Shown here: positions 7,996 through 36,960 of the stretch, piece after piece
Numbering within the stretch: the first letter of the stretch is position 1
Layout of the letters: every line of letters starts with the position of its first letter
Origin: Pontibacillus marinus BH030004 = DSM 16465
Lineage (GTDB): Bacteria > Bacillota > Bacilli > Bacillales > BH030062
DNA: 41,371 nt
NCBI RefSeq assembly: GCF_000425225.1
Contig: NZ_AULJ01000046.1
Location: 1-41,371, forward strand
Direction of reading: 5' to 3'
The notes under the pieces: generated by a model
Told to the model about the DNA's origin: nothing
The model's database searches: none
The model's input: the letters and a program-made list of their open reading frames with translations, nothing else
Program-made: the position numbers and the translations under genes

Positions 7996-8188
7996 AGCGC
8001 AAGTGCCCGTTTAGCAACGAAGGGACTGGACTGAGCCCGTAGTACGATAAAGGAAACACGATGAACAAAGTGAATCGATGTTGACTTATCGTACGGAGAA
8101 AGAATGATCGACTAAGTTCGTCACGTCCTGTGACAACGTCGATCTGACCCACGTCGTGTGGGCCCAAGTCCCTTCGTTGCTGGGCGCT
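7996..8188. repeat. Family B multi-helix palindromic element between menF and menA
   Basis: The 480-base gene-free gap between divergent menF and menA is dominated by this element. The outer arms are AGCGC (7996-8000) with GCGCT (8184-8188). A perfect 15-base helix pairs 8013-8027 with 8167-8181, continued by GCCC (8035-8038) with GGGC (8160-8163). Inside are three hairpins: GTACGATAA (8042-8050) with TTATCGTAC (8086-8094); GATCGAC (8106-8112) with GTCGATC (8138-8144), enclosing GTCAC/GTGAC; and CCCAC/GTGGG (8148-8162). It resembles a folded RNA with a multi-branch junction. I recall near-identical elements in other Bacillaceae intergenic regions, unverified. Neither strand shows a credible gene. 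Confidence 0.75.
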
Positions 8189-8257
8189 GGAGTTGGATGG
8201 GGTTGCTCCAAACTTAAAGTTCACCCAAACAAGCTTCATACAAAGGGAGAGAAGACC

Positions 8258-9205
8258 ATGACAAACATGAATAAAAAAGACATACAATCAGCATTAAATG
8301 AACGAAAAGGCTGGCAAGTTTGGTGGAGATTACTTAGACCTCACACATTAACTGCGGCTTTTGTACCTGTATTCATTGGAACGATGTTAGCAAGCCTCGA
8401 AGAATCTATTAACTTTCCATTATTTTCTGCAATGCTTTTTGCCTCTATTTTAATTCAGGCAGCAACAAATATGTTTAATGAATACTATGATTATGTACGA
8501 GGATTAGATACAGAGCAATCCATAGGCATAGGGGGCACTATAGTAAGGGATGGAATCTCCCCCAAAACTGTGCTCGGTCTTGCACTCGGATTCTTTGGTA
8601 TAGCCATATTGCTTGGTGTTTATATTTGTATAGCTACCACTTGGTGGATTGCTGCGATAGGTGCTATCTCCATGGCTTTTGGATACCTTTACACAGGCGG
8701 TCCTTATCCTATTGCTTATACACCATTTGGAGAAGTGGTTGCAGGTTTCTTCATGGGAACAGTTATCATTGGCATTAGCTATTATATCCAAACATTATCT
8801 TTATCCATTTCAGTATTATTTGTATCACTACCTGTAGCTATCCTTATTGGAGCCATTCTGCTTGCCAATAACATTCGAGATTTAGAAGGGGACAAACAGA
8901 ATGGTCGAAATACAATCGCCATTTTATTAGGAAAGCGTGGAGCTATACAATTCCTAAAAGTTCTTTTCATTGCTGCTTATAGCTCAGTTGGGATTTATAT
9001 TGCCCTCGGTATCTTACCGATTTGGTCAGCTATTGTTCTGTTAGCTCTACCTAAAACAATCGGAGCTATTCAAGTGTTTAAATCAGGTGATACACCGCTT
9101 GAGATGATGCCAGCTATGAAATACACCGCTCAAACAAATACGATCTTTGGCTTTTTATTAGGCATCTCTATTTTAATTCAGTTACTCATACCATTATCCA
9201 TTTAA
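8258..9205 (+). CDS. menA: 1,4-Dihydroxy-2-naphthoate polyprenyltransferase MenA
   Basis: Membrane prenyltransferase that attaches the isoprenoid tail to DHNA, giving demethylmenaquinone. UbiA superfamily, 315 residues with about eight or nine hydrophobic segments. The first Asp-rich motif is in NMFNEYYDYVRGLD and the second is NNIRDLEGDKQNGR. The frame is open upstream to 8156, but that part lies in the palindromic element. The ATG at 8258 (MTNMNKKDIQ) follows AAAGGGAG at a normal distance, so it is the start. It is divergent from the men operon and ends at a strong terminator. Confidence 0.94.
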   Translation: MTNMNKKDIQSALNERKGWQVWWRLLRPHTLTAAFVPVFIGTMLASLEESINFPLFSAMLFASILIQAATNMFNEYYDYVRGLDTEQSIGIGGTIVRDGISPKTVLGLALGFFGIAILLGVYICIATTWWIAAIGAISMAFGYLYTGGPYPIAYTPFGEVVAGFFMGTVIIGISYYIQTLSLSISVLFVSLPVAILIGAILLANNIRDLEGDKQNGRNTIAILLGKRGAIQFLKVLFIAAYSSVGIYIALGILPIWSAIVLLALPKTIGAIQVFKSGDTPLEMMPAMKYTAQTNTIFGFLLGISILIQLLIPLSI

Positions 9206-9210
9206 TCACT

Positions 9211-9255
9211 AAAAAACCTCCAAGCAATGATATAAGCTTGGAGGTTTTTTATATA
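9211..9255 (+). terminator. Terminator of menA
   Basis: Arms AACCTCCAAGC (9215-9225) and GCTTGGAGGTT (9236-9246), followed by a T run to 9250. Confidence 0.9.
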
Positions 9256-9315
9256 CAAAATCAGGTTATGAAATATTTTACAACCATTATTAATAACTAT
9301 CGCGGGCAACATAAA

Positions 9316-9398
9316 AAAGCTGACATTACTGCTCTAGTATTAAATTTTAAGTTTATTAAAATTTTTTTACGGGTAATTATTGACCATATGTCAGCTTT
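9316..9398. repeat. Inverted repeat upstream of glnA
   Basis: Perfect 11-base arms AAAGCTGACAT (9316-9326) and ATGTCAGCTTT (9388-9398) enclose an AT-rich centre that has its own arms AAATTTTAA (9342-9350) and TTAAAATTT (9356-9364). The right arm lies in the spacer of the predicted glnA promoter. It could be an operator pair, or just a cruciform-prone spacer. Confidence 0.6.
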
Positions 9399-9408
9399 AG
9401 GTTACACT
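9380..9408 (+). promoter_or_regulatory. Candidate sigma-A promoter of glnA
   Basis: TTGACC (9380-9385), 17 bases, TACACT (9403-9408). The expected start of transcription falls at about 9415, inside the GlnR/TnrA-type box. Confidence 0.6.
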
Positions 9409-9411
9409 ACA

Positions 9412-9428
9412 TGTAATGTTTCCTGACA
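9412..9428 (+). promoter_or_regulatory. GlnR/TnrA-type operator upstream of glnA
   Basis: TGTAATGTTTCCTGACA fits the known Bacillus GlnR/TnrA consensus TGTNA-N7-TNACA exactly. It overlaps the predicted transcription start, a position that fits repression. A looser match with eight central bases (TGTCA...TTACA) overlaps the promoter spacer at 9389-9406, and an inverted TGTTAC/GTAACA pair lies at 9439-9466. Confidence 0.7.
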
Positions 9429-9491
9429 TAATAAAACGTGTTACTCATATACATAAATGTGTAACAACAAAAAACAAAGCGAGGAGATCTT

Positions 9492-10802
9492 ATGGCTAAT
9501 ACTAAAGAACTCATCAAAAAAGAAGTAGAAGAACATGGGGTAGAATTTATTCTACTAGAATTCACAGATATGCTTGGTTACACCAAAAACGTTGAACTTC
9601 CGGTTGAAGAACTGAATAATATCTTAGAAAATGAAGCAATGTTTGACAGCTCGTCCATCGTTGGTTTCTCTGATATTCAAGAAAGTGATATGTATCTATA
9701 CCCTGATTTAGATACGTTCAAAGTACTACCTTCAATCGTTTCCGAGGAGCCAACTGCACGATTTATTTGTGATATTTATAAACCTGATGGCACACCATTC
9801 GAAGGTGACCCTCGCTACATTCTTAAACGCGCAATGCAAGAAGCAGAAAACATGGGGTATACCATTAACGTTGGACCTGAACCAGAATTCTTCTTATTCA
9901 AATTGAATGAAGAAGGTTACCCAATCCGTAAAATGAACGACCGTGGTGGTTACTTTGACGCTTCTCCTAAAGACAAAGGGGATTCCGTCCGTCGTGACAT
10001 CGTTCGTACACTTAAGAAGTTCGGTTTCCAAATGGAAGCTTCTCACCACGAAGTAGCTCAAGGACAACACGAAATCAACTTCCGTTTTGATGATATGCTG
10101 AAAACAGCAGACAATATCCAGACATTCAAAAGCGTTGTAAAAGACGTGGCTACAAACCACGATTATCACGCAACGTTTATGCCAAAACCAATCAGCGGTG
10201 AGAACGGTTCAGGAATGCACGCTCACTTATCCTTATTCCAAAATGGCGAGAGTGCTTTCTATGACGAGACAGCTGAAGATGGCGTTTCTGAAACAATGAA
10301 ACAGTTTATGGCTGGTATTTTGAAACACGCAAATGCCATTGCAGCTATTACAAACCCAAGTGTTAACTCTTACAAGCGTCTAGTACCTGGTTACGAAGCA
10401 CCTGTAAGTGTTGCATGGTCTCACTCTAACCGTTCTTGTATGATTCGCGTACCGAATACACGTGGACTTGGTACACGATTCGAAGTTCGTAACCCAGATC
10501 CGTCCGCCAATCCGTATTTAACTTTAGCTGTTTTAATTCAAGCTGGTCTTGAAGGAATCCGTAAAGGTATGGATGCTGGTGAGGCAGAGACTCGTAACCT
10601 ATATGAGGTTGAAGACGATAGCGTACCAACATTACCTACTAACTTAAAAGAAGCGATTACTGCACTTCAGAAAGATGAACTTCTTATGAATGCACTAGGC
10701 GAACACACTTCTTGTGTCTTCATTAAAGAAAAAGAAGCAGAATGGTCTGAGTATTCCCTACAAGTAAGTAAGTGGGAAATGGATAAATATATGCACAACT
10801 AA
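9492..10802 (+). CDS. glnA: Type I glutamine synthetase, stand-alone and probably a second isozyme
   Basis: ATP-dependent synthesis of glutamine from glutamate and ammonia; cytosolic dodecamer. The 436 residues carry FTDMLGYTKNVE, the ammonium-site MFDSSS, GPEPEFFLFKL, ASHHEVAQGQHEI, the ATP-site MPKPISGENGSGMH, NPSVNSYKRLVPGYEAP with the flap glutamate, and EVRNPDPSANPYL. Two things are odd. No glnR precedes it, unlike the usual Bacillus glnRA operon. Asp61 (GFSDIQESDM) stands where B. subtilis GlnA has Arg62, the residue needed for feedback inhibition by glutamine. The start is the ATG at 9492 after GCGAGGAGATCTT. A promoter, a GlnR/TnrA-type box and a terminator bracket it as a single gene. 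Halobacillus halophilus is reported to have a second, salt-induced glnA2, which this may be. Confidence 0.93.
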   Translation: MANTKELIKKEVEEHGVEFILLEFTDMLGYTKNVELPVEELNNILENEAMFDSSSIVGFSDIQESDMYLYPDLDTFKVLPSIVSEEPTARFICDIYKPDGTPFEGDPRYILKRAMQEAENMGYTINVGPEPEFFLFKLNEEGYPIRKMNDRGGYFDASPKDKGDSVRRDIVRTLKKFGFQMEASHHEVAQGQHEINFRFDDMLKTADNIQTFKSVVKDVATNHDYHATFMPKPISGENGSGMHAHLSLFQNGESAFYDETAEDGVSETMKQFMAGILKHANAIAAITNPSVNSYKRLVPGYEAPVSVAWSHSNRSCMIRVPNTRGLGTRFEVRNPDPSANPYLTLAVLIQAGLEGIRKGMDAGEAETRNLYEVEDDSVPTLPTNLKEAITALQKDELLMNALGEHTSCVFIKEKEAEWSEYSLQVSKWEMDKYMHN

Positions 10803-10814
10803 TAGTAAAGATAA

Positions 10815-10846
10815 AGCAGATGTGAATCCTCACATCTGCTTTTTTA
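10815..10846 (+). terminator. Terminator of glnA
   Basis: AGCAGATGTGA (10815-10825), loop ATCC, TCACATCTGCT (10830-10840), then T6. Confidence 0.93.
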
Positions 10847-13025: not shown

Positions 13026-13889
13026 TTATTCTACCGGAAGTTTTTCAGGATTCATTGTGATATAAACTTCTTGGATTTCATCTTCAACAACAAAAAAGCT
13101 AACAATACTTTGCATACCACCATTCATGAAGTTAACTAATGCAGGCTGCCCGTTCACATTTCGAATTTCATAGTAAAAATCATCAGGAACATTTTTACCA
13201 ATACTAAATAAAAAAGGAATAACTCGTGCAGATGTAACCACTGGTTTAATAGCAACACGTACTTTCCCTCCGCCATCAGAGTATAACGTGACGTTTTCTG
13301 ATACCAATTTAAGTAATGCTTCTCGATCATTATTTTGAAAAGCTCTAATAAAATGATTAACTATGGATCTATTTTTCTCGTAAGGTAAATTTTCTTCCTC
13401 AACATCTAATATCTTTTTCTTTGCTCTACTATAAATCTTCCTGCAAGCATCACTTTTCTTTCCAACGATCTCAGCAGCCTCACCATGTGAGAATTCAAAT
13501 ACATCTCTTAATAATAAAACCGCTCTCTCTTCAGGAGTTAAATGTTCCATCATGCGTAAATAGGCAATGGAAAGACCCTCTTTTTGCAATAGTCTATCAG
13601 CTGGATTTTCGTCGCCTGATTCAGTTAATAATAAAGGTTCCGGATTCCACGGCCCTATATATTGTTCTCGTTTAACCCGTGAGGATTTCAACACATCCAA
13701 ACACCGATTCGTCATCATTTTACAGAGGTAAGCTTTCTTATTCTCTACTTTTCGTTCATCGACTTGATAAGCCTGTAGAAATGTATCCTGTACGACATCT
13801 TCTGTTTCCGCAATGGAACCGAGCATACGATAGCCTAATGAAAATAATAATGGCTGATACGAGCGAAACTCATCATTACTTATTTGCAT
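13026..13889 (-). CDS. ECF41-family RNA polymerase sigma factor with SnoaL-like C-terminal domain
   Basis: Alternative sigma factor of 287 residues whose fused C-terminal domain replaces an anti-sigma factor. Sigma region 2 spans about 10-75 (GYRMLGSIAETEDVVQDTF) and region 4 about 115-163. Three ECF41 hallmarks are visible: the linker motif WNPEP (consensus WLPEP) at 81-85, DGGGKV at 205-210, and NPEKL (consensus NPDKL) at 280-284. The ATG at 13889 follows GAGGTGATAGAA; a GTG at 13898 overlapping the upstream stop is an alternative. The gene is coupled to an FAD oxidoreductase, matching the known linkage of ECF41 genes to oxidoreductases. An ECF41-type promoter precedes the pair. Confidence 0.9.
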   Translation of the reverse strand: MQISNDEFRSYQPLLFSLGYRMLGSIAETEDVVQDTFLQAYQVDERKVENKKAYLCKMMTNRCLDVLKSSRVKREQYIGPWNPEPLLLTESGDENPADRLLQKEGLSIAYLRMMEHLTPEERAVLLLRDVFEFSHGEAAEIVGKKSDACRKIYSRAKKKILDVEEENLPYEKNRSIVNHFIRAFQNNDREALLKLVSENVTLYSDGGGKVRVAIKPVVTSARVIPFLFSIGKNVPDDFYYEIRNVNGQPALVNFMNGGMQSIVSFFVVEDEIQEVYITMNPEKLPVE

Positions 13890-13894
13890 TTCTA

Positions 13895-15169
13895 TCACCT
13901 CAATTCATGCAAAATTTCTTGTGCGGCTCGTTTCCCACTCGTAATAGCTGCTTCAGATAGCATTGAATCTGGACTTGCCCAATCCCCAGCTACATATATA
14001 GGTCGAGAAAATAACATGGACTTGGTAAATTCACCCTTATCTTCTACTTTAGGTAGTCTTTGATTAACGGTCATAGCAGGAAGCAGACGACTTGTAATCT
14101 TGTATTCTTTCCACCCTGGTTGCATTCGTTCTAGAAATTGTTCTAGTTCTTCCTTTATCTTTCGGTGATCTAAGTCTTCATCTGGGTGTAAATATTTCAA
14201 AACATGAAGAACAATTCCTTTGTTATCCTCTGAAAGTCTTGCATAGCCCGAGTGTACCGAAAAATAGAGTGGATCATTTAGTCCCACTGCAAACTTCTTT
14301 TTCGGGTTAGGAAGTGTAGATAATGCAACATCCAATGTAGCAGCTTTAACCGGTTCGATTCTCTCTGCTAATTGAATAGATTCTTCGCCATCAGTGATAA
14401 TTCCTTTCATGTCCTGAGGAGAGCCTGTAAAAATAACACGTTCCGCATTTATTGTCTCACCATTGGATAATTGTAATTCTGTGAGGTCTTCTTCCCGAGT
14501 AACGATTTGCTTTACATGAGACTTCTTCTGCACTTCAACCCCTGCCATTATTGCTTGATTGTGCAATTGATCAATCATGAATTGCCACCCTCCATCCAAA
14601 TAAATCACACCACCATTTACTCTTTGTATGTGAGAAAGAATGATTTTAGCACTAACCTTTTCAGGAGCATGACAATACGTAGCGATTCGGGCCAAAATGT
14701 AAAGGAGTTGTTGAACATTTGAGGATCTTACGTTTTGTTGCACCCATAGTTGATAGGTTATGGTAGCTAACTCATTGATATCGATTTTATTTATACGAGC
14801 CAGTACACCAATCCACTCCATACGTTCTCTCCAATTTAAAAACCTAGTTGAGAAAAGACCTCCGGGAGTAAACGGGGCTTTATATTCTTGATCTTCTCCC
14901 ACTAATACACCATTAAGTTTTGGAGACTGTCCTGAAATGTGAATGTCCAGCTCATCTAATATGGGTTTTGCCCTACCCTTTTTATAGAGCGCATGAGGAC
15001 CGATATTAAAATATTGCCCTTTTAATACATCCGTACGAGCACGTCCGCCGAGTTTCTTCCCCTTTTCTAAAAGCAATATATTTAACGATGTTTTGCCTAA
15101 ATAATTTGCAGCTACATACCCTGCTAAACCTCCTCCAACAATAACAACATCCCAGTAATTCTGTTCCAC
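13895..15169 (-). CDS. FAD-dependent oxidoreductase, amine oxidase/phytoene desaturase type
   Basis: Flavoprotein of 424 residues. The N-terminal dinucleotide fold has VVIVGGGLAGYVAANYL, then LLLEKGKKLGGRARTD; the C-terminal FAD motif is IYVAGDWASPDSMLSEAAITSGKRAA. No signal peptide, so cytosolic. The start is a GTG at 15169 with AAGGAGGTATATTT before it. It is the first gene of a two-gene operon with the ECF41 sigma (stop and next start overlap) and is the probable target of that sigma through the promoter at 15204-15230. The substrate is unknown; carotenoid, amine or quinone oxidation cannot be distinguished by eye. Confidence 0.8.
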   Translation of the reverse strand: MEQNYWDVVIVGGGLAGYVAANYLGKTSLNILLLEKGKKLGGRARTDVLKGQYFNIGPHALYKKGRAKPILDELDIHISGQSPKLNGVLVGEDQEYKAPFTPGGLFSTRFLNWRERMEWIGVLARINKIDINELATITYQLWVQQNVRSSNVQQLLYILARIATYCHAPEKVSAKIILSHIQRVNGGVIYLDGGWQFMIDQLHNQAIMAGVEVQKKSHVKQIVTREEDLTELQLSNGETINAERVIFTGSPQDMKGIITDGEESIQLAERIEPVKAATLDVALSTLPNPKKKFAVGLNDPLYFSVHSGYARLSEDNKGIVLHVLKYLHPDEDLDHRKIKEELEQFLERMQPGWKEYKITSRLLPAMTVNQRLPKVEDKGEFTKSMLFSRPIYVAGDWASPDSMLSEAAITSGKRAAQEILHELR

Positions 15170-22672: not shown

Positions 22673-22770
22673 AATGTTTATATTTAACTGAAACGCTTGC
22701 AATCTATAAACGATTATGGCAAAGTCATAAATGAACAAGGCGTTAGTCTACAAATCTATAATTTCGTGAA

Positions 22771-22862
22771 ATGTAGGGGGACCAGTGTTGCTGGTTGAGA
22801 CTGTATGCATGAACATACTGACCCTTCGAACCTGAACTGGTTGAGACCAGCGTAGGAAACAT
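22771..22862 (+). promoter_or_regulatory. TPP riboswitch (THI element)
   Basis: Contains the conserved series GGGGG...TGAGA...GACCCTTCGAACCTGA, then CTGG...CCAGCGTAGGAAA, the aptamer for thiamine pyrophosphate. The outer stem is ATGT with ACAT. The usual CTGAGA reads TTGAGA, but its partner has changed to A (GACCAG), keeping the pair. It is followed by a terminator and then the thiamine-precursor transporter operon, so high TPP should stop transcription. Confidence 0.95.
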
Positions 22863-22888
22863 ATTCAATCCATAAATGTATTGAGATA

Positions 22889-23012: not shown

Positions 23013-24017
23013 ATGAAAAAATGGGTTGTATTCATTATAGCTCTATTTGTTTTAGGAGCATGCTCGAGTGACGAACAGACGAATTCACAAAATGGAGATG
23101 CTTCTAAAGAATTAAAGGACATTACACTTGTATTAGATTGGACACCAAACACGAATCATACAGGTCTCTATGTAGCCCAAGAACAAGGTTATTTTGAAGA
23201 ACAAGGACTAGATGTCGAGATTATTATGCCTAGCGAAACGGGATCAAATCAGCTTGTTGCATCTGGTAAGGCAGATTTCGGTATTAGTTATCAAGAATCT
23301 TTAACAAAAGCTCGTATTCAGGATATTCCTGTTGTATCGATCGCTGCTATTATTCAACATAATACATCTGGCTTTGCTTCACCCAAAAATCGAAATATCA
23401 CATCCCCTAAAGACTTTGAAGGCAAAACTTACGGTGGCTGGGGAGATCCTGTTGAAAAAGAAATGATCTCTACTCTTATGAAAAAAGATGGTGGCGACAT
23501 TAATAAAGTAGACATCATCAACATGGGGAATACCGATTTCTTTACAGCTACAGAGCGAGGAGATATTGATTTTGCTTGGGTTTATTACGGTTGGACAGGT
23601 GTTGAAGCGGAACTTCGTGGGAAAGATCTTAATATGATCTATTTAACGGATTATTCCAAGAAACTAGATTACTATACACCAATCTTGACTGCGAATGAGA
23701 AAAAGATAAAAGAAGACCCTGAAACGGTTAAAGCATTTGTAAAAGCTGTTTCACAAGGATATCAATACGCTATTGATCAACCTGAGAAAGCCGCAGATAT
23801 CTTGATTGAAGCTGTACCTGACTTGGACCCTGAACTAGTGAAAGCAAGTCAGAAATGGCTATCTCCTAAGTACCAGGATGACGCCGATCAGTGGGGTGTG
23901 CAAAAGAAAAGCGTTTGGAAAAACTATGCGGACTGGATGCACGAAAATGACCTACTTGATCAGGAATTGAATGCTGAAGATGCCTTTACAAATGAATTCT
24001 TACCAAATAAGGAGTGA
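23013..24017 (+). CDS. thiY: Thiamine-precursor (HMP/aminopyrimidine) ABC transporter, substrate-binding lipoprotein
   Basis: Binds the pyrimidine moiety of thiamine outside the membrane. The 334 residues start with a lipoprotein signal, LFVLGAC, with the lipid-bearing cysteine at 17. The mature part is of the NMT1/THI5-like type: LVLDWTPNTNHTGLYVAQEQGYFEEQGLDVEI, YQESLTKAR, and FAWVYYGWTG. The ATG follows GAGGAGGATTCAAT. It is first after the TPP riboswitch, and the permease and ATPase genes follow. ThiY-type specificity is inferred from domain and regulation; related proteins can carry riboflavin or sulfonates. Confidence 0.88.
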   Translation: MKKWVVFIIALFVLGACSSDEQTNSQNGDASKELKDITLVLDWTPNTNHTGLYVAQEQGYFEEQGLDVEIIMPSETGSNQLVASGKADFGISYQESLTKARIQDIPVVSIAAIIQHNTSGFASPKNRNITSPKDFEGKTYGGWGDPVEKEMISTLMKKDGGDINKVDIINMGNTDFFTATERGDIDFAWVYYGWTGVEAELRGKDLNMIYLTDYSKKLDYYTPILTANEKKIKEDPETVKAFVKAVSQGYQYAIDQPEKAADILIEAVPDLDPELVKASQKWLSPKYQDDADQWGVQKKSVWKNYADWMHENDLLDQELNAEDAFTNEFLPNKE

Positions 24018-26628: not shown

Positions 26629-26735
26629 AACTCAATTTCTTCACAAACACTATGCACAAATTTCTCCATCCCTATTTGCAGAGAGCTTTCTTTTCCATAC
26701 TCTCTAACATTTACAGCCCCCTGCTCCATTTTTGA
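26619..26735 (-). other. thrS: Displaced C-terminal coding end of thrS
   Basis: In the frame one base off from the thrS open frame, codons from about 26735 to the TAA at 26619-26621 read GDQKMEQGAVNVREYGKESS and on to CEEIELKK. This is the expected end of a threonyl-tRNA synthetase. The shift lies at a run of five A on the coding strand (26729-26733); six A would restore a protein of about 635 residues. Confidence 0.85.
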
Positions 26736-28525
26736 TCACCGACAACCAAGATATAAGGTATCTTTTTCATTTGTGCCTCTCTAATTTTGTAACCCATTTT
26801 TTCTTCACGTAAATCCACATCCACTCGTACATCAGCTTTCTTCAATTTATCCAAAATATCAAGAGCATACGAAGCATGAACCTGATTGGATACTGGAATA
26901 ATTTTAGCTTGCACAGGAGCTAACCATGTTGGAAATGCACCGCCGAAGTGTTCAATCAGGATTCCTAAGAAACGATCAATGGAACCAAATACAGCTCTGT
27001 GAATGACAACTGGACGAACTTTTTCATTATTTTCATCAATGTAGTTGAGATCAAATTTCTCTGGCATTTGGAAGTCTAACTGAATTGTTCCACATTGATG
27101 GCTGCGATTTAATGCATCTTCAATATGAAAATCAATCTTCGGCCCATAAAACGCTCCATCTCCTTCATTGATACGGTAATCAAACTCTAAAGCATCCAGT
27201 ACATTTTTTAAAGCTCCTTCTGCTTGATCCCATAATTCGTCGCTCCCCATTGCCTTTTCTGGACGAGTAGATAACTCAAGTTCATATTCAAACCCCATCA
27301 CCTTATAAACGTGGTCAATCAACTCAACAGCTGTCTTGATTTCCCCTTCAATTTGCTGAGGTGTAGCAAAGATATGAGCATCATCCTGGCAAAACGAACG
27401 TACGCGAAGCAAACCATTTAAAGCACCACTATATTCGTGTCGATGCACCTGTCCGAATTCAGCCATGCGAAGAGGAAGATCTCGGTATGAATGAAGCTGA
27501 TCGTTGTACATAAGCATGTGCCCTGGGCAATTCATCGGCTTTAAAGCAAAACTTGCATGATCGACATTTGAAAAATACATGTTTTCTTTATAGTGATCCC
27601 AGTGTCCAGATTGTTCCCAAAGACGCTGATTCATAAGTTGAGGAGTACGAACCTCCTGATAATCATAATGTTTATGAAGATCGCGAATAAAGAACTCAAG
27701 TTCATTTCGTAACACCTGACCATTGGGTTTATAAAAGGGCATCCCTGGTGCTTCCTCCGAAAACATAAATAGCTCTAATTCCTTACCTAGTTTTCGATGG
27801 TTTCTTTTAGCCGCTTCATCTAGAAACTTCAGATAATCATTAAGCTCTGTTTGTGATGAAAATGCTACCCCGTAAATACGCTGGAGCATCTGATTATCAC
27901 TATCACCCTTCCAATAGGCACCCGCTACACTCATTAATTTAAAAGATTTAATATAGCCAGTAGACGGAAGATGCGGTCCTCGACATAGGTCAAGAAATTC
28001 TCCTTGTTGATAAACTGTTATAGGTGCACCCTCAGGCAGTTCTTCTAAAATCTCTAGCTTTAGTGCATCCCCTTCTAATAGTGATCGCGCTTCCTCACGA
28101 GTAACTTCTTTACGTTCCACCAACAAATTTTCTTGAACAATCTTGTTCATTTCTTTTTCAATCTTTGGGAGATCTTCCTCTGAGATACTTTCTGGCAAAT
28201 CTATATCGTAGTAAAAACCGTTCTCTATAACAGGCCCTATACCAAGCTGCACATTCCCATACAATCGTTTAACTGCTTGTGCCATGACATGTGCTGATGT
28301 ATGACGGAGAAGTTCTATACCCTCATCGGAATCAGCTTGTAATAGTTCCACTTCTGCATCTTCTTCCATTGGCCTGCGAAAATCATATAGTTCTCCATTG
28401 ACTTTTCCAGCAACCGATTTTTTTCTTAAACTTGGACTGATTGATTGCGCTATTTCCTCTAGAGTAATCCCTTTTTGATACGCTTTCTGATTTCCATCTG
28501 GAAACTTGATTTGAATGTCGTTCAT
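26711..28525 (-). CDS. thrS: Threonyl-tRNA synthetase, 3' end frameshifted
   Basis: Charges tRNA-Thr. From the ATG at 28525 (MNDIQIKFPDG, AGGAG eight bases upstream) the order is TGS domain (about 1-62), editing domain with LRHTSAHVMAQAVKRLYG, and the class II core. The core has the zinc ligands in MNCPGHMLMY, FGQVHRHEYSG and VIHRAVFGSIDRFLG. The anticodon-binding domain begins at LAPVQAKIIPV. The open frame stops after VVGDQKWSRGL, about 30 residues early, because of a single-base shift in an A run; the missing end is present in another frame. Two T-boxes control it, as for B. subtilis thrZ. The synthetase is essential unless a second copy exists, so sequencing error, slippage or true decay must be told apart. 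Confidence 0.88.
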   Translation of the reverse strand: MNDIQIKFPDGNQKAYQKGITLEEIAQSISPSLRKKSVAGKVNGELYDFRRPMEEDAEVELLQADSDEGIELLRHTSAHVMAQAVKRLYGNVQLGIGPVIENGFYYDIDLPESISEEDLPKIEKEMNKIVQENLLVERKEVTREEARSLLEGDALKLEILEELPEGAPITVYQQGEFLDLCRGPHLPSTGYIKSFKLMSVAGAYWKGDSDNQMLQRIYGVAFSSQTELNDYLKFLDEAAKRNHRKLGKELELFMFSEEAPGMPFYKPNGQVLRNELEFFIRDLHKHYDYQEVRTPQLMNQRLWEQSGHWDHYKENMYFSNVDHASFALKPMNCPGHMLMYNDQLHSYRDLPLRMAEFGQVHRHEYSGALNGLLRVRSFCQDDAHIFATPQQIEGEIKTAVELIDHVYKVMGFEYELELSTRPEKAMGSDELWDQAEGALKNVLDALEFDYRINEGDGAFYGPKIDFHIEDALNRSHQCGTIQLDFQMPEKFDLNYIDENNEKVRPVVIHRAVFGSIDRFLGILIEHFGGAFPTWLAPVQAKIIPVSNQVHASYALDILDKLKKADVRVDVDLREEKMGYKIREAQMKKIPYILVVGDQKWSRGL

Positions 28526-28550
28526 GTTCACCACTCCTATTTTGATAATA

Positions 28551-28790
28551 AAAAAGCACGTATTCATCCCTAAGAAAGGGACGAGTACGTGCTAACCCGT
28601 GGTTCCACCCAAATTCCCATCAATATATGATGACTCATGTAGCCTTTAACGTGGCTTAACCCGGTACAAGATACTGGTTTTCCCCTGTACAGCTCAAAGG
28701 TGGTAAGTTTCTTTTCCTGCGTTGGGAAGTTCTCAGCATCCTTCCCTCTCTGGAAACCGTAAAAAGAAACTGTTGTCCTTATCAAAGCTT
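28551..28790 (-). promoter_or_regulatory. T-box riboswitch 2 (proximal), threonine
   Basis: Minus-strand leader with the T-box core GGGTGGAACCACGG (complement near 28597-28611). The terminator is GCACGTACTCGTCCC/GGGATGAATACGTGC followed by T6. In the specifier region CTTACCACC, both ACC triplets are threonine codons. Uncharged tRNA-Thr should stabilise the antiterminator. It ends about 25 bases before the thrS ATG. Confidence 0.93.
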
Positions 28791-28802
28791 ACATATATCC
28801 AT

Positions 28803-29040
28803 TAAAAAACACGCACTCATCCCTAAGAAAGGGACGAGTGCGTGTTATACTCGTGGTTCCACCCAATTTTTCATCCGTACTTGGATGACTCATTGAAGCT
28901 GTAACGTAGCTATACGATACTGGTTTTTGAATTCCCCAGTATAGCTCAAAGGTGGTAAATGACTCTCCTGCGTTAGGAAGTTCTCAGCAGTTCTTCCTTC
29001 TCTGGAAACCGAATAGAGTCATTCATGTCCTCTTCATTGC
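28803..29040 (-). promoter_or_regulatory. T-box riboswitch 1 (distal), threonine
   Basis: A second complete T-box, closely similar to the proximal one: the same TTACCACC specifier, T-box core GGGTGGAACCACGA (complement near 28852-28865), and terminator ACACGCACTCGTCCC/GGGATGAGTGCGTGT with T6. The two act in series, which should sharpen the response to threonine starvation. Confidence 0.93.
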
Positions 29041-29064
29041 TTTCATCTTCAAATATTATGAAAT

Positions 29065-32731: not shown

Positions 32732-32784
32732 AAAAAGACCATAGAGAACTAAAGGTGATATATACACCTTTTAAATCGCTCTAC

Positions 32785-32944
32785 ATCTTCTCCCATCCAG
32801 ACTGTAACTGTCGGTCCCGGAGTTTCACCAGGTCCACCGATCGGCATGGAGTTAAACACTCTCGTAGCGCCTCCTGGGTCACGGACTAAGAACACCAAGT
32901 GGGTTCATCACCGTCGGTCGGGAATTTCACCCTGCCCCGAAGAT
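32785..32944 (-). promoter_or_regulatory. FMN riboswitch (RFN element)
   Basis: On the minus strand it opens ATCTTCGGGGCAGGGTGAAA, then CCGACCGACGGTGAT, GTCCGTGACCC, and near the end TGGACCTGGTGAAACTCCGG, GACCGACAGT, and the closing GGGAGAAGAT. The ends pair (ATCTTC/GAAGAT). All conserved RFN segments are present, so FMN should shut off ribU. The stretch from 32945 to 33063 shows only AT-rich sequence with a possible promoter. Confidence 0.96.
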
Positions 32945-33063
32945 GGAATCGTATTGAATTTACACTTTTTAGTTTATAGGATCCTGAATAATCCAGCAAC
33001 TAAATCAGCTTAATTCATACTATATAGGAATCGTATGAGCTTCGCATGATTTTCATATACCAT

Positions 33064-34782: not shown

Positions 34783-36734
<1,952 letters not shown>

Positions 36735-36798: not shown

Positions 36799-36863
36799 TC
36801 TTAAACAATATTAATTAAGAAACGTGTCCCAATTACGATTGAGACCATCATGAAATCTTGCAA

Positions 36864-36934
36864 TACCCATAGTCGGATCATTTACGGTAATCCGGTAGAA
36901 ACTTGCGAGCCATATCCTCGCGATTATATGAGTA
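36864..36934 (-). promoter_or_regulatory. Guanine riboswitch (purine class)
   Basis: On the minus strand: TACTCATATAATCGCGAGG, ATATGGCTCGC, AAGTTTCTACCGG, CCGTAAATG and GACTATGGGTA. P1 is TACTCATA/TATGGGTA. The ligand-recognising position before TATG is C, which marks the guanine (not adenine) type. It controls xpt-pbuX. Confidence 0.95.
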
Positions 36935-36960
36935 CGTCCGCATCATTTTAATGTAATCCA

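Follow-up and report, generated by a model that had tools for sequence, protein, structure and literature searches.

GlnA2 of Pontibacillus marinus, a second, solitary class I-alpha glutamine synthetase paralogue with aspartate at the feedback arginine position and a conserved GlnR/TnrA-type box upstream

The glnA2 locus and its distribution

We examined a window (the whole stretch of DNA analysed) of 41,371 nucleotides from Pontibacillus marinus BH030004 = DSM 16465, contig NZ_AULJ01000046.1. The features found at its glutamine synthetase (GS) gene, here called glnA2, are given in Table 1. The reading frame scored 535.7 bits against the NCBIfam profile for type I glutamate--ammonia ligase (TIGR00653; cut-off 429.15), and solved Gram-positive GS chains matched the protein over residues 2-435 (E 1e-170). 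These chains matched in one stretch and the 2gls-like chains in two (best 148-406); the alpha and beta labels of the matched chains are our assumption. The adenylylated GSI-beta enzymes carry a ~25-residue insertion absent from alpha enzymes (PMC9249791, in part; "in part" marks sources cited for the portions at hand).

Table 1. Features at and upstream of glnA2 (window coordinates)
Feature	Position	Strand	Remarks
sigmaB-like promoter	9351-9376	+	GTTTAT-N14-GGGTAA
sigma70-type match	9380-9408	+	TTGACC-N17-TACACT; 9/12; ends just before the box, which would cover the start
Degenerate second operator-like site	9389-9406	+	TGTCAGCTTTAGGTTACA; spacer one base too long; by eye
GlnR/TnrA-type operator (predicted)	9412-9428	+	TGTAATGTTTCCTGACA; TGTNAN7TNACA; conserved before orthologues
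Ribosome-binding site	9481-9486	+	GAGGAG; by eye
glnA2	9492-10802	+	stand-alone class I-alpha glutamine synthetase paralogue, 436 aa, stop-free ORF
D50 loop codons	9642-9686	+	window residues 51-65 = B. subtilis 52-66; clade-specific G54S, V61S, R62D, E64Q
Codon for Asp61	9672-9674	+	GAT; aligned with B. subtilis Arg62
Intrinsic terminator-like hairpin	10813-10842	+	3' of glnA2; 13 pairs

The gene stands between menA (8156-9205) upstream and a LysM/SafA-type gene downstream, so the earlier note was right that no glnR directly precedes it. The same note had called glnA2 a second isozyme and proposed a genome search for another glnA beside glnR. That search, over 4.28 Mb in 77 contigs with a limit of E <= 0.001, turned up a single further GS, G000:C41:3435-4742, 56% identical to GlnA2. 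This copy, GlnA1, follows glnR and keeps Arg62 (B. subtilis numbering); the tail of the genome's GlnR reads RQGELSRFFH. GlnA2 departs from the glnRA type on both counts, having Asp61 in place of Arg62 and lying outside a glnR operon.

A public genome collection yielded 34 related loci: 31 are close relatives with 77-85% identity (from Halobacillus, Pontibacillus, Thalassobacillus, Pseudalkalibacillus, Alkalihalobacillus and Bacillus sp.), and three, from Jeotgalibacillus, are ordinary Arg62 GlnA. In an order-level sample of 397 genomes, including that of the window, the clade was found in 36 genomes at E <= 1e-180, representing 5 of 135 genera. A class-level sample of 398 genomes gave only the window's genome at 1e-175, with the 20 other genomes listed all from the same order, so that this sample carries little information on other orders. 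Within the window's own genus glnA2 is present in seven of eight genomes (G000-G007) and absent from G003; in this genus mate we also noted glnR in two overlapping frames (L110, G003:C18), through either a sequencing error or a true break. The copies of G004, G006 and G007 agree in loop and C-terminal sequence with those of the named Pontibacillus loci L016, L018 and L011, which identifies the genus as probably Pontibacillus. GlnA2 is a second, solitary GSI-alpha of moderately halophilic Bacillales. A quick unrooted tree of 74 rows placed the group with Asp at position 62 (26 rows) on one side of a branch with SH-aLRT 100, the Halobacillus copies falling inside it. The protein is 82% identical to that of L015, a strain of Halobacillus halophilus, and the H. 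halophilus glnA2 named in the earlier note is indeed its orthologue.

The neighbors of glnA2 change from genome to genome. No ORF similar to menA or to the LysM-domain gene (E <= 1e-10) was found in the 31 orthologue loci (L003-L031, L035, L036), for which flanks of up to 6 kb were compared, four loci being shorter. Two window genes ~16-17 kb away do have similar ORFs in some of these loci. An operon or conserved neighborhood for glnA2 was rejected, the window neighbors being absent beside the 31 orthologues.

Several other elements were seen in the window. A Bacillaceae-1 RNA (Rfam RF01690, 75.9 bits) at 8096-8162 (+) overlaps the first bases of the listed menA ORF. At 13026-15169 (-) a SigJ/TIGR02957-type sigma factor gene overlaps a gene with weak phytoene-desaturase/HpnE-type FAD oxidoreductase matches, all below cut-off. 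A TPP riboswitch (22765-22875, +) precedes an NMT1/THI5-like gene (23013-24017), and tandem T-box leaders (28574-28794 and 28827-29046, -) stand before a threonyl-tRNA-synthetase-like gene (26711-28567) that is possibly a second, inducible thrS. An FMN riboswitch is found at 32781-32948 (-), and a purine riboswitch at 36850-36951 (-) lies upstream of an ORF (36087-36674) and a xanthine/uracil permease-type gene (34783-36090).

Residue 62 and the surroundings of the active site

In alignment with the B. subtilis GlnA letters of 4s0r, the window residues S60-D61 fall on V61-R62, and the D50 loop, with limits taken from PMC9249791 (in part), reads FDSSSIVGFSDIQ in GlnA2 and FDGSSIEGFVRIE in B. 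subtilis GlnA. The replacement of Arg62 by Asp61, first read from GFSDIQESDM against GFVRIEESDM, therefore stands. Of 63 orthologue loci, which include the window's own gene and species duplicates and comprise 45 distinct upstreams, 60 have Asp at position 62 and three have Ala; the substitution is neither a sequencing slip nor chance. The neighboring change G54S, unremarked in the earlier note, as was the conservation of the promoter and operator region, occurs in all 63. The 44 Arg-type proteins used for comparison were chosen by the motif GFVR and have Arg62 by construction.

In GS structures Arg62 braces Glu304 against the bound glutamine and also touches the acidic position of the motif XG(E/D)XSRF in the tail of GlnR, and the D50 loop is donated to the active site of the adjacent subunit (PMC9249791, in part). 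The tail of the window genome's GlnR, RQGELSRF, fits this motif. The tie between residue 62 and glutamine feedback, on which the earlier note relied, is borne out by these structures and by two archaeal enzymes that escape glutamine inhibition, one with a natural Gly at the feedback arginine (PMC10799026, in part) and the other the engineered R66A form of the Methanosarcina mazei GS (PMC11957540, in part). For the effects ascribed there to B. subtilis Arg62 mutants, our literature search gave structural statements only and no primary mutant paper. We infer, on well-founded grounds, that GlnA2 would have lost both feedback and the GlnR contact. Asp61 should be unable to form the lock of Arg62, Glu304 and glutamine, so that GlnA2 would keep working at high glutamine. 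Repulsion between Asp61 and the acidic GlnR-tail residue would keep GlnA2 from activating GlnR.

The rest of the catalytic apparatus is largely kept. We examined 24 columns that we take to be functional in GS in 45 orthologue loci; 19 equal B. subtilis in every locus, including all metal, arginine and Glu304 columns. Among those kept in 45/45 are D53, S55, S56, E132, E134, E189, E196, N240, H245, R298, E304, R316, R321, R331, E333 and R335. The five that vary are 54 (Ser in 45/45), 62, 186 (Asn in 3/45), 239 (Glu, Asp or Ala) and 247 (His in 45/45); the surroundings of the active site have thus changed, and this counts against the explanation that we prefer below. Compared with 21 Arg62-type proteins, 48 columns across the protein differ clade-wide. 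The D50 loop contributes G54S, V61S, R62D and E64Q to them; also among them are Y308S, which follows the E flap, R429S with its neighbors near the C-terminus, and a five-residue gap after the Y loop. In eight pairs dN was 0.002-0.10 and dS 0.13-2.05 (two dS values near 2 being close to saturation), and because dN/dS is ~0.01-0.05, glnA2 is under strong purifying selection.

Assignment to the 2-oxoglutarate-activated archaeal type of GS was rejected on pocket residues: the equivalent of Arg20 (B. subtilis R22) is Leu in the window protein and non-Arg in 27 of 63 loci, and the blocking Glu36 is found in 63/63. The pocket criteria (Arg20, Arg88 and a small residue at 34) are those of PMC10799026 (in part); the comparison covered Arg20 and the residue at 34, with the equivalence set by an offset of our own.

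The region upstream of glnA2

Of 45 distinct upstreams (175 bp each, from the 63 loci), 44 carry the GlnR/TnrA consensus TGTNAN7TNACA at a distance of 60-100 bp from the start, for an expectation of 0.14% under a first-order Markov model; the exception, L045, has its sole box at 192 bp. In 38 aligned upstreams the columns of the box average 1.60 bits and the 141 others 0.74. The window's box is among the less typical of the set. It has seven central bases in common with the amtB box of the same genome (TGTTATGTTTCCTTACA, on the strand opposite amtB), which precedes by 48 bp the codon at which the match to the family begins, the start codon being assumed. With the genome's own glnRA box, TGTAAGAAATCCTGACA, it shares TCCTGACA, a common ending. 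The glnRA box stands 4 bp before TTGACA, an arrangement reported for glnRA in Bacilli (PMC3412718, in part). Three distinct relatives' upstreams (L016/L042, L018/L041, L043) have a perfect second box in the area of the degenerate second site of the window.

The pattern itself is common, with 86 matches genome-wide against 87 for a reversed control and two in the window against 1.1 expected; the sigmaB pattern likewise gives two in the window against 1.45 expected. Matches alone are therefore at chance level and only their conserved place counts. The earlier note's observation that glnR is missing upstream holds, as said, but the freedom from nitrogen control that it suggested is unlikely given a GlnR/TnrA-type box conserved in 44 of 45 upstreams.

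A TnrA-like match (61-70% identity) was found in 28 of 37 genomes and, with the TnrA query, none in that of the window. The glnA2 box is kept in genomes with GlnR and no TnrA-like match (the window's, G002, G004-G006, G151 and G200), in genomes with both regulators, and in family f21, where 14 of 14 genomes have a TnrA-like match and no GlnR-like one at E <= 1e-8. In the window's genome, GlnR is the regulator expected to read the box. Two f21 loci (L104, L105) show glnA1 with neither a glnR ORF nor a GlnR/TnrA box in the stretch fetched, an apparent loss of GlnR in this family.

Farther upstream is the sigmaB-like promoter, for which we used a consensus that we take to be that of sigmaB. A strict form of the motif occurs at 130-170 bp in 27 of the 45 upstreams (0.1% expected) and is absent from 18. 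A loose pattern occurs in 37 and leaves eight unmatched; it was written after seeing the data, and the strict figure is the one to use. An earlier, slightly different expression matched 27/45 loci and 2/20 glnA1 upstreams, the latter being mostly operon-internal and so a poor control. The genome has a sigB gene (444.2 bits, cut-off 315), and a sigmaB-like promoter was previously noted for H. halophilus glnA2 (PMC2412884, PMC4187189, both in part). The upstreams of L016, L018 and L043, all from the window's genus, carry a pair of GlnR/TnrA boxes and lack the sigmaB motif, which makes the nitrogen box the more constant of the two elements. Control of glnA2 by both nitrogen and stress is likely, judging from these upstream patterns.

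Transcripts from the sigmaB-like promoter would be expected to start upstream of the box, and GlnR bound to the box could block them. Sigma70-type matches number three in the region against 6.2 in shuffles, so that the one in Table 1 is by itself no evidence. In f21 a TA[GA]AAT hexamer follows the box by ~30-35 bp (by eye), and a box-to-hexamer spacing of ~30-35 bp is that of TnrA-activated promoters. Because the box follows the sigmaB-like site and the region has no more promoter-like matches than chance would give, the direction of control is uncertain.

The box might be a palindrome of other function, such as an RNA hairpin or the site of another regulator, rather than a GlnR/TnrA operator. 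Use of the sigmaB-like promoter would place the region within the transcript, and in several genera the sequence that follows the box can be folded on paper into a hairpin. One such hairpin of changing sequence and weak energy was seen between the box and the ribosome-binding site in the window (9439-9466) and in Halobacillus and Pontibacillus leaders. Its z-scores were -1.6 to +0.4 in eight leaders, RNAalifold gave no consensus for 36 leaders, and no Rfam family exceeded its gathering score in 9200-9500; an RNA element in the leader was rejected on these results. Given also the exact fit to TGTNAN7TNACA in 44/45 upstreams and the likeness of the box to the amtB and glnRA boxes of the genome, we find a palindrome of other function highly doubtful, and favor an operator read by GlnR or TnrA.

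Role of GlnA2 and related systems

The earlier note had pictured GlnA2 as a salt-induced, feedback-insensitive GS and a bulk producer of the compatible solutes glutamine and glutamate. The sigmaB-like promoter and the genera named above for the orthologues agree with this, as does H. halophilus, where GlnA2 protein rises threefold (PMC3995056) and glnA2 transcript fourfold with salt (PMC3995056; PMC2412884, in part). Deletion of the H. halophilus gene, however, left growth at 1-3 M NaCl normal (data not shown in that paper), as well as the pools of Glu, Gln, Pro and ectoine and whole-cell activity, and a 75% pure preparation of the protein proved inactive when assayed for forward hydroxamate formation (PMC3995056). 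The conserved GlnR/TnrA-type box moreover points to nitrogen and not only to salt, and we regard bulk synthesis for osmoprotection as very unlikely. Attempts to delete glnA1 failed, and the authors left the role of GlnA2 open (PMC3995056). GS activity of the orthologue is contradicted by the published assay, and GlnA2 is a putative enzyme.

The H. halophilus deletion mutant was tested in G10 medium with 37 mM NH4Cl or in NB medium only, and GlnA2 was purified in a buffer with 100 mM NaCl (PMC3995056). With media so rich in ammonium or otherwise, the nitrogen-limiting condition suggested by the box lies outside the published mutant tests. These media and this buffer soften the evidence against an active GS and do not remove it. 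Nitrogen repression is at most partial, because GlnA2 protein was present in ammonium-rich medium. The portions at hand of the H. halophilus papers on glnA2 (PMC3995056, PMC2412884, PMC4187189) mention neither the replacement of Arg62 nor a GlnR/TnrA box.

An orthologue inactive as a GS when purified (PMC3995056) could instead be a GS-like ligase that joins glutamate to another amine, Asp61 making the acceptor pocket acidic. The clade-fixed changes G54S, R62D, Y308S and N247H would suit such an enzyme, and other GSI-like proteins offer a precedent (PMC8998196, in part). Unlike the glutamylpolyamine synthetases of that source, GlnA2 keeps the ammonium-site residues Asp53, Ser56, Tyr156, Asn240 and Glu304 (B. 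subtilis numbering, the equivalence to the Salmonella residues being our own). The gamma-glutamylputrescine synthetase profile NF045547 gave 292.7 bits for a cut-off of 650, hydroxylamine likewise gave no product, and a scan of 18 other genes of the window showed no recognisable amine-catabolism gene. A ligase for another amine is accordingly unlikely. Membership among the gamma-glutamylpolyamine synthetases proper was rejected, on the retention of S56, Y156, N240 and E304 and the profile score below cut-off.

The same inactivity would be expected if GlnA2 were a regulatory or inactive subunit, or worked only mixed with GlnA1; as the D50 loop serves the adjacent subunit, a mixed ring would have sites lacking Arg62 (PMC9249791, in part). 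The two H. halophilus enzymes separate on an anion exchanger, at ~220 and 520 mM NaCl, which suggests mostly separate oligomers (PMC3995056), and the kept catalytic set would not be needed by a dead subunit. We judge a subunit role improbable, to about the same degree as the amine ligase.

The explanation that we prefer, which we hold to be evenly poised between right and wrong, is that GlnA2 is an auxiliary GSI-alpha isozyme under stress and nitrogen control that has lost feedback and GlnR signalling. SigmaB, as the general stress factor, would raise glnA2 transcription, and nitrogen status would control it via GlnR, TnrA or both, so that GlnA2 would be made under nitrogen shortage or stress. 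GlnA1, from glnRA, would still be both the principal GS and the sensor, with GlnA2 as its non-signalling auxiliary. The 2014 work, in which the osmolyte hypothesis failed, did not settle the role of the Halobacillus protein; the box and the charge-reversed feedback residue point to nitrogen limitation, not salt, and also to feedback and GlnR binding. In GSI-alpha the catalyst is also the nitrogen sensor, and natural paralogues that have the catalytic set without the sensing residue would show how the two tasks come apart.

Second copies lacking Arg62 were also found outside the clade. Of 18 two-GS genomes, 13 have one copy with another residue in place of Arg62 (10 with Pro, one with Thr and two with Lys), and in five both copies have Arg; the survey covers 29 loci from these 18 genomes, picked from a listing and not at random, with other two-match genomes left out. 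The remaining six of the 29 loci are Arg-type partners. A GlnR/TnrA-type box lies within 300 bp of the chosen start in 9 of the 11 Pro/Thr62 copies, five of whose start codons were badly chosen by a length rule (394-397 aa), making box distances unreliable; the upstream of L117 is cut by the contig end. The two Lys62 copies, which stand beside the first glnA, have no box. These (L112, L113) are tandem second GS genes on a long branch. In the unrooted quick tree the Asp, Pro/Thr, Lys and Arg types form four separate groups, with a risk of long-branch joining between Lys62 and Asp62; a single origin of Arg62 loss would be compatible with this tree. A split between sensor and non-sensor GS may thus be common.

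A bolder possibility, which we consider a long shot, is that Bacillales GS have divided into an Arg62 glnRA sensor and 'deaf' Asp, Pro, Thr or Lys isozymes, many under the same kind of nitrogen operator, and that deaf GlnA2 may enter GlnA1 rings, retuning sensing by subunit composition. Through its D50 loop each GlnA2 would render the GlnA1 site next to it resistant to feedback and unresponsive to GlnR, and stress or nitrogen shortage would shift the composition and thereby nitrogen sensing. GlnA2 would then be inactive alone because it works within mixed rings.

Among known systems, H. halophilus GlnA2 is the same in being encoded by a solitary gene with a sigmaB-like promoter, with glnA1 beside glnR (PMC3995056; PMC2412884 and PMC4187189, in part). 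B. subtilis GlnA, the GSI-alpha of glnRA, shares family, catalytic residues and E flap sequence with GlnA2 and has Arg62, feedback inhibition and GlnR activation (PMC9249791, in part), where GlnA2 has Asp61, G54S, Y308S, R429S and the five-residue gap. The Pro/Thr62 and Lys62 enzymes of other Bacillales are like GlnA2 second copies without Arg62, but they belong to separate tree clades, are 45-54% identical to the window protein and have a normal DGSS motif; the Pro/Thr62 copies, unlike GlnA2, keep Tyr308 and Arg429. Second glnA genes with GlnR sites are apparently listed for several Bacillales (PMC3412718, in part). Paenibacillus polymyxa WLY78 GlnA1 (GS1) is also a stand-alone second GS with GlnR sites at its promoter, in an organism with GlnR and no TnrA; it is GlnR-repressed and hardly binds GlnR (PMC6191146, PMC9948412, both in part). 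It is reported to be 39% identical to its own GlnA (same sources), and is for that reason likely of another lineage than GlnA2. The GS of Methanothermococcus thermolithotrophicus is a GSI-alpha that likewise lacks the feedback arginine (Gly67) and is uninhibited by glutamine, but it is activated by 2-oxoglutarate (PMC10799026, in part), whereas GlnA2 has Leu at the Arg20 equivalent and the blocking Glu.
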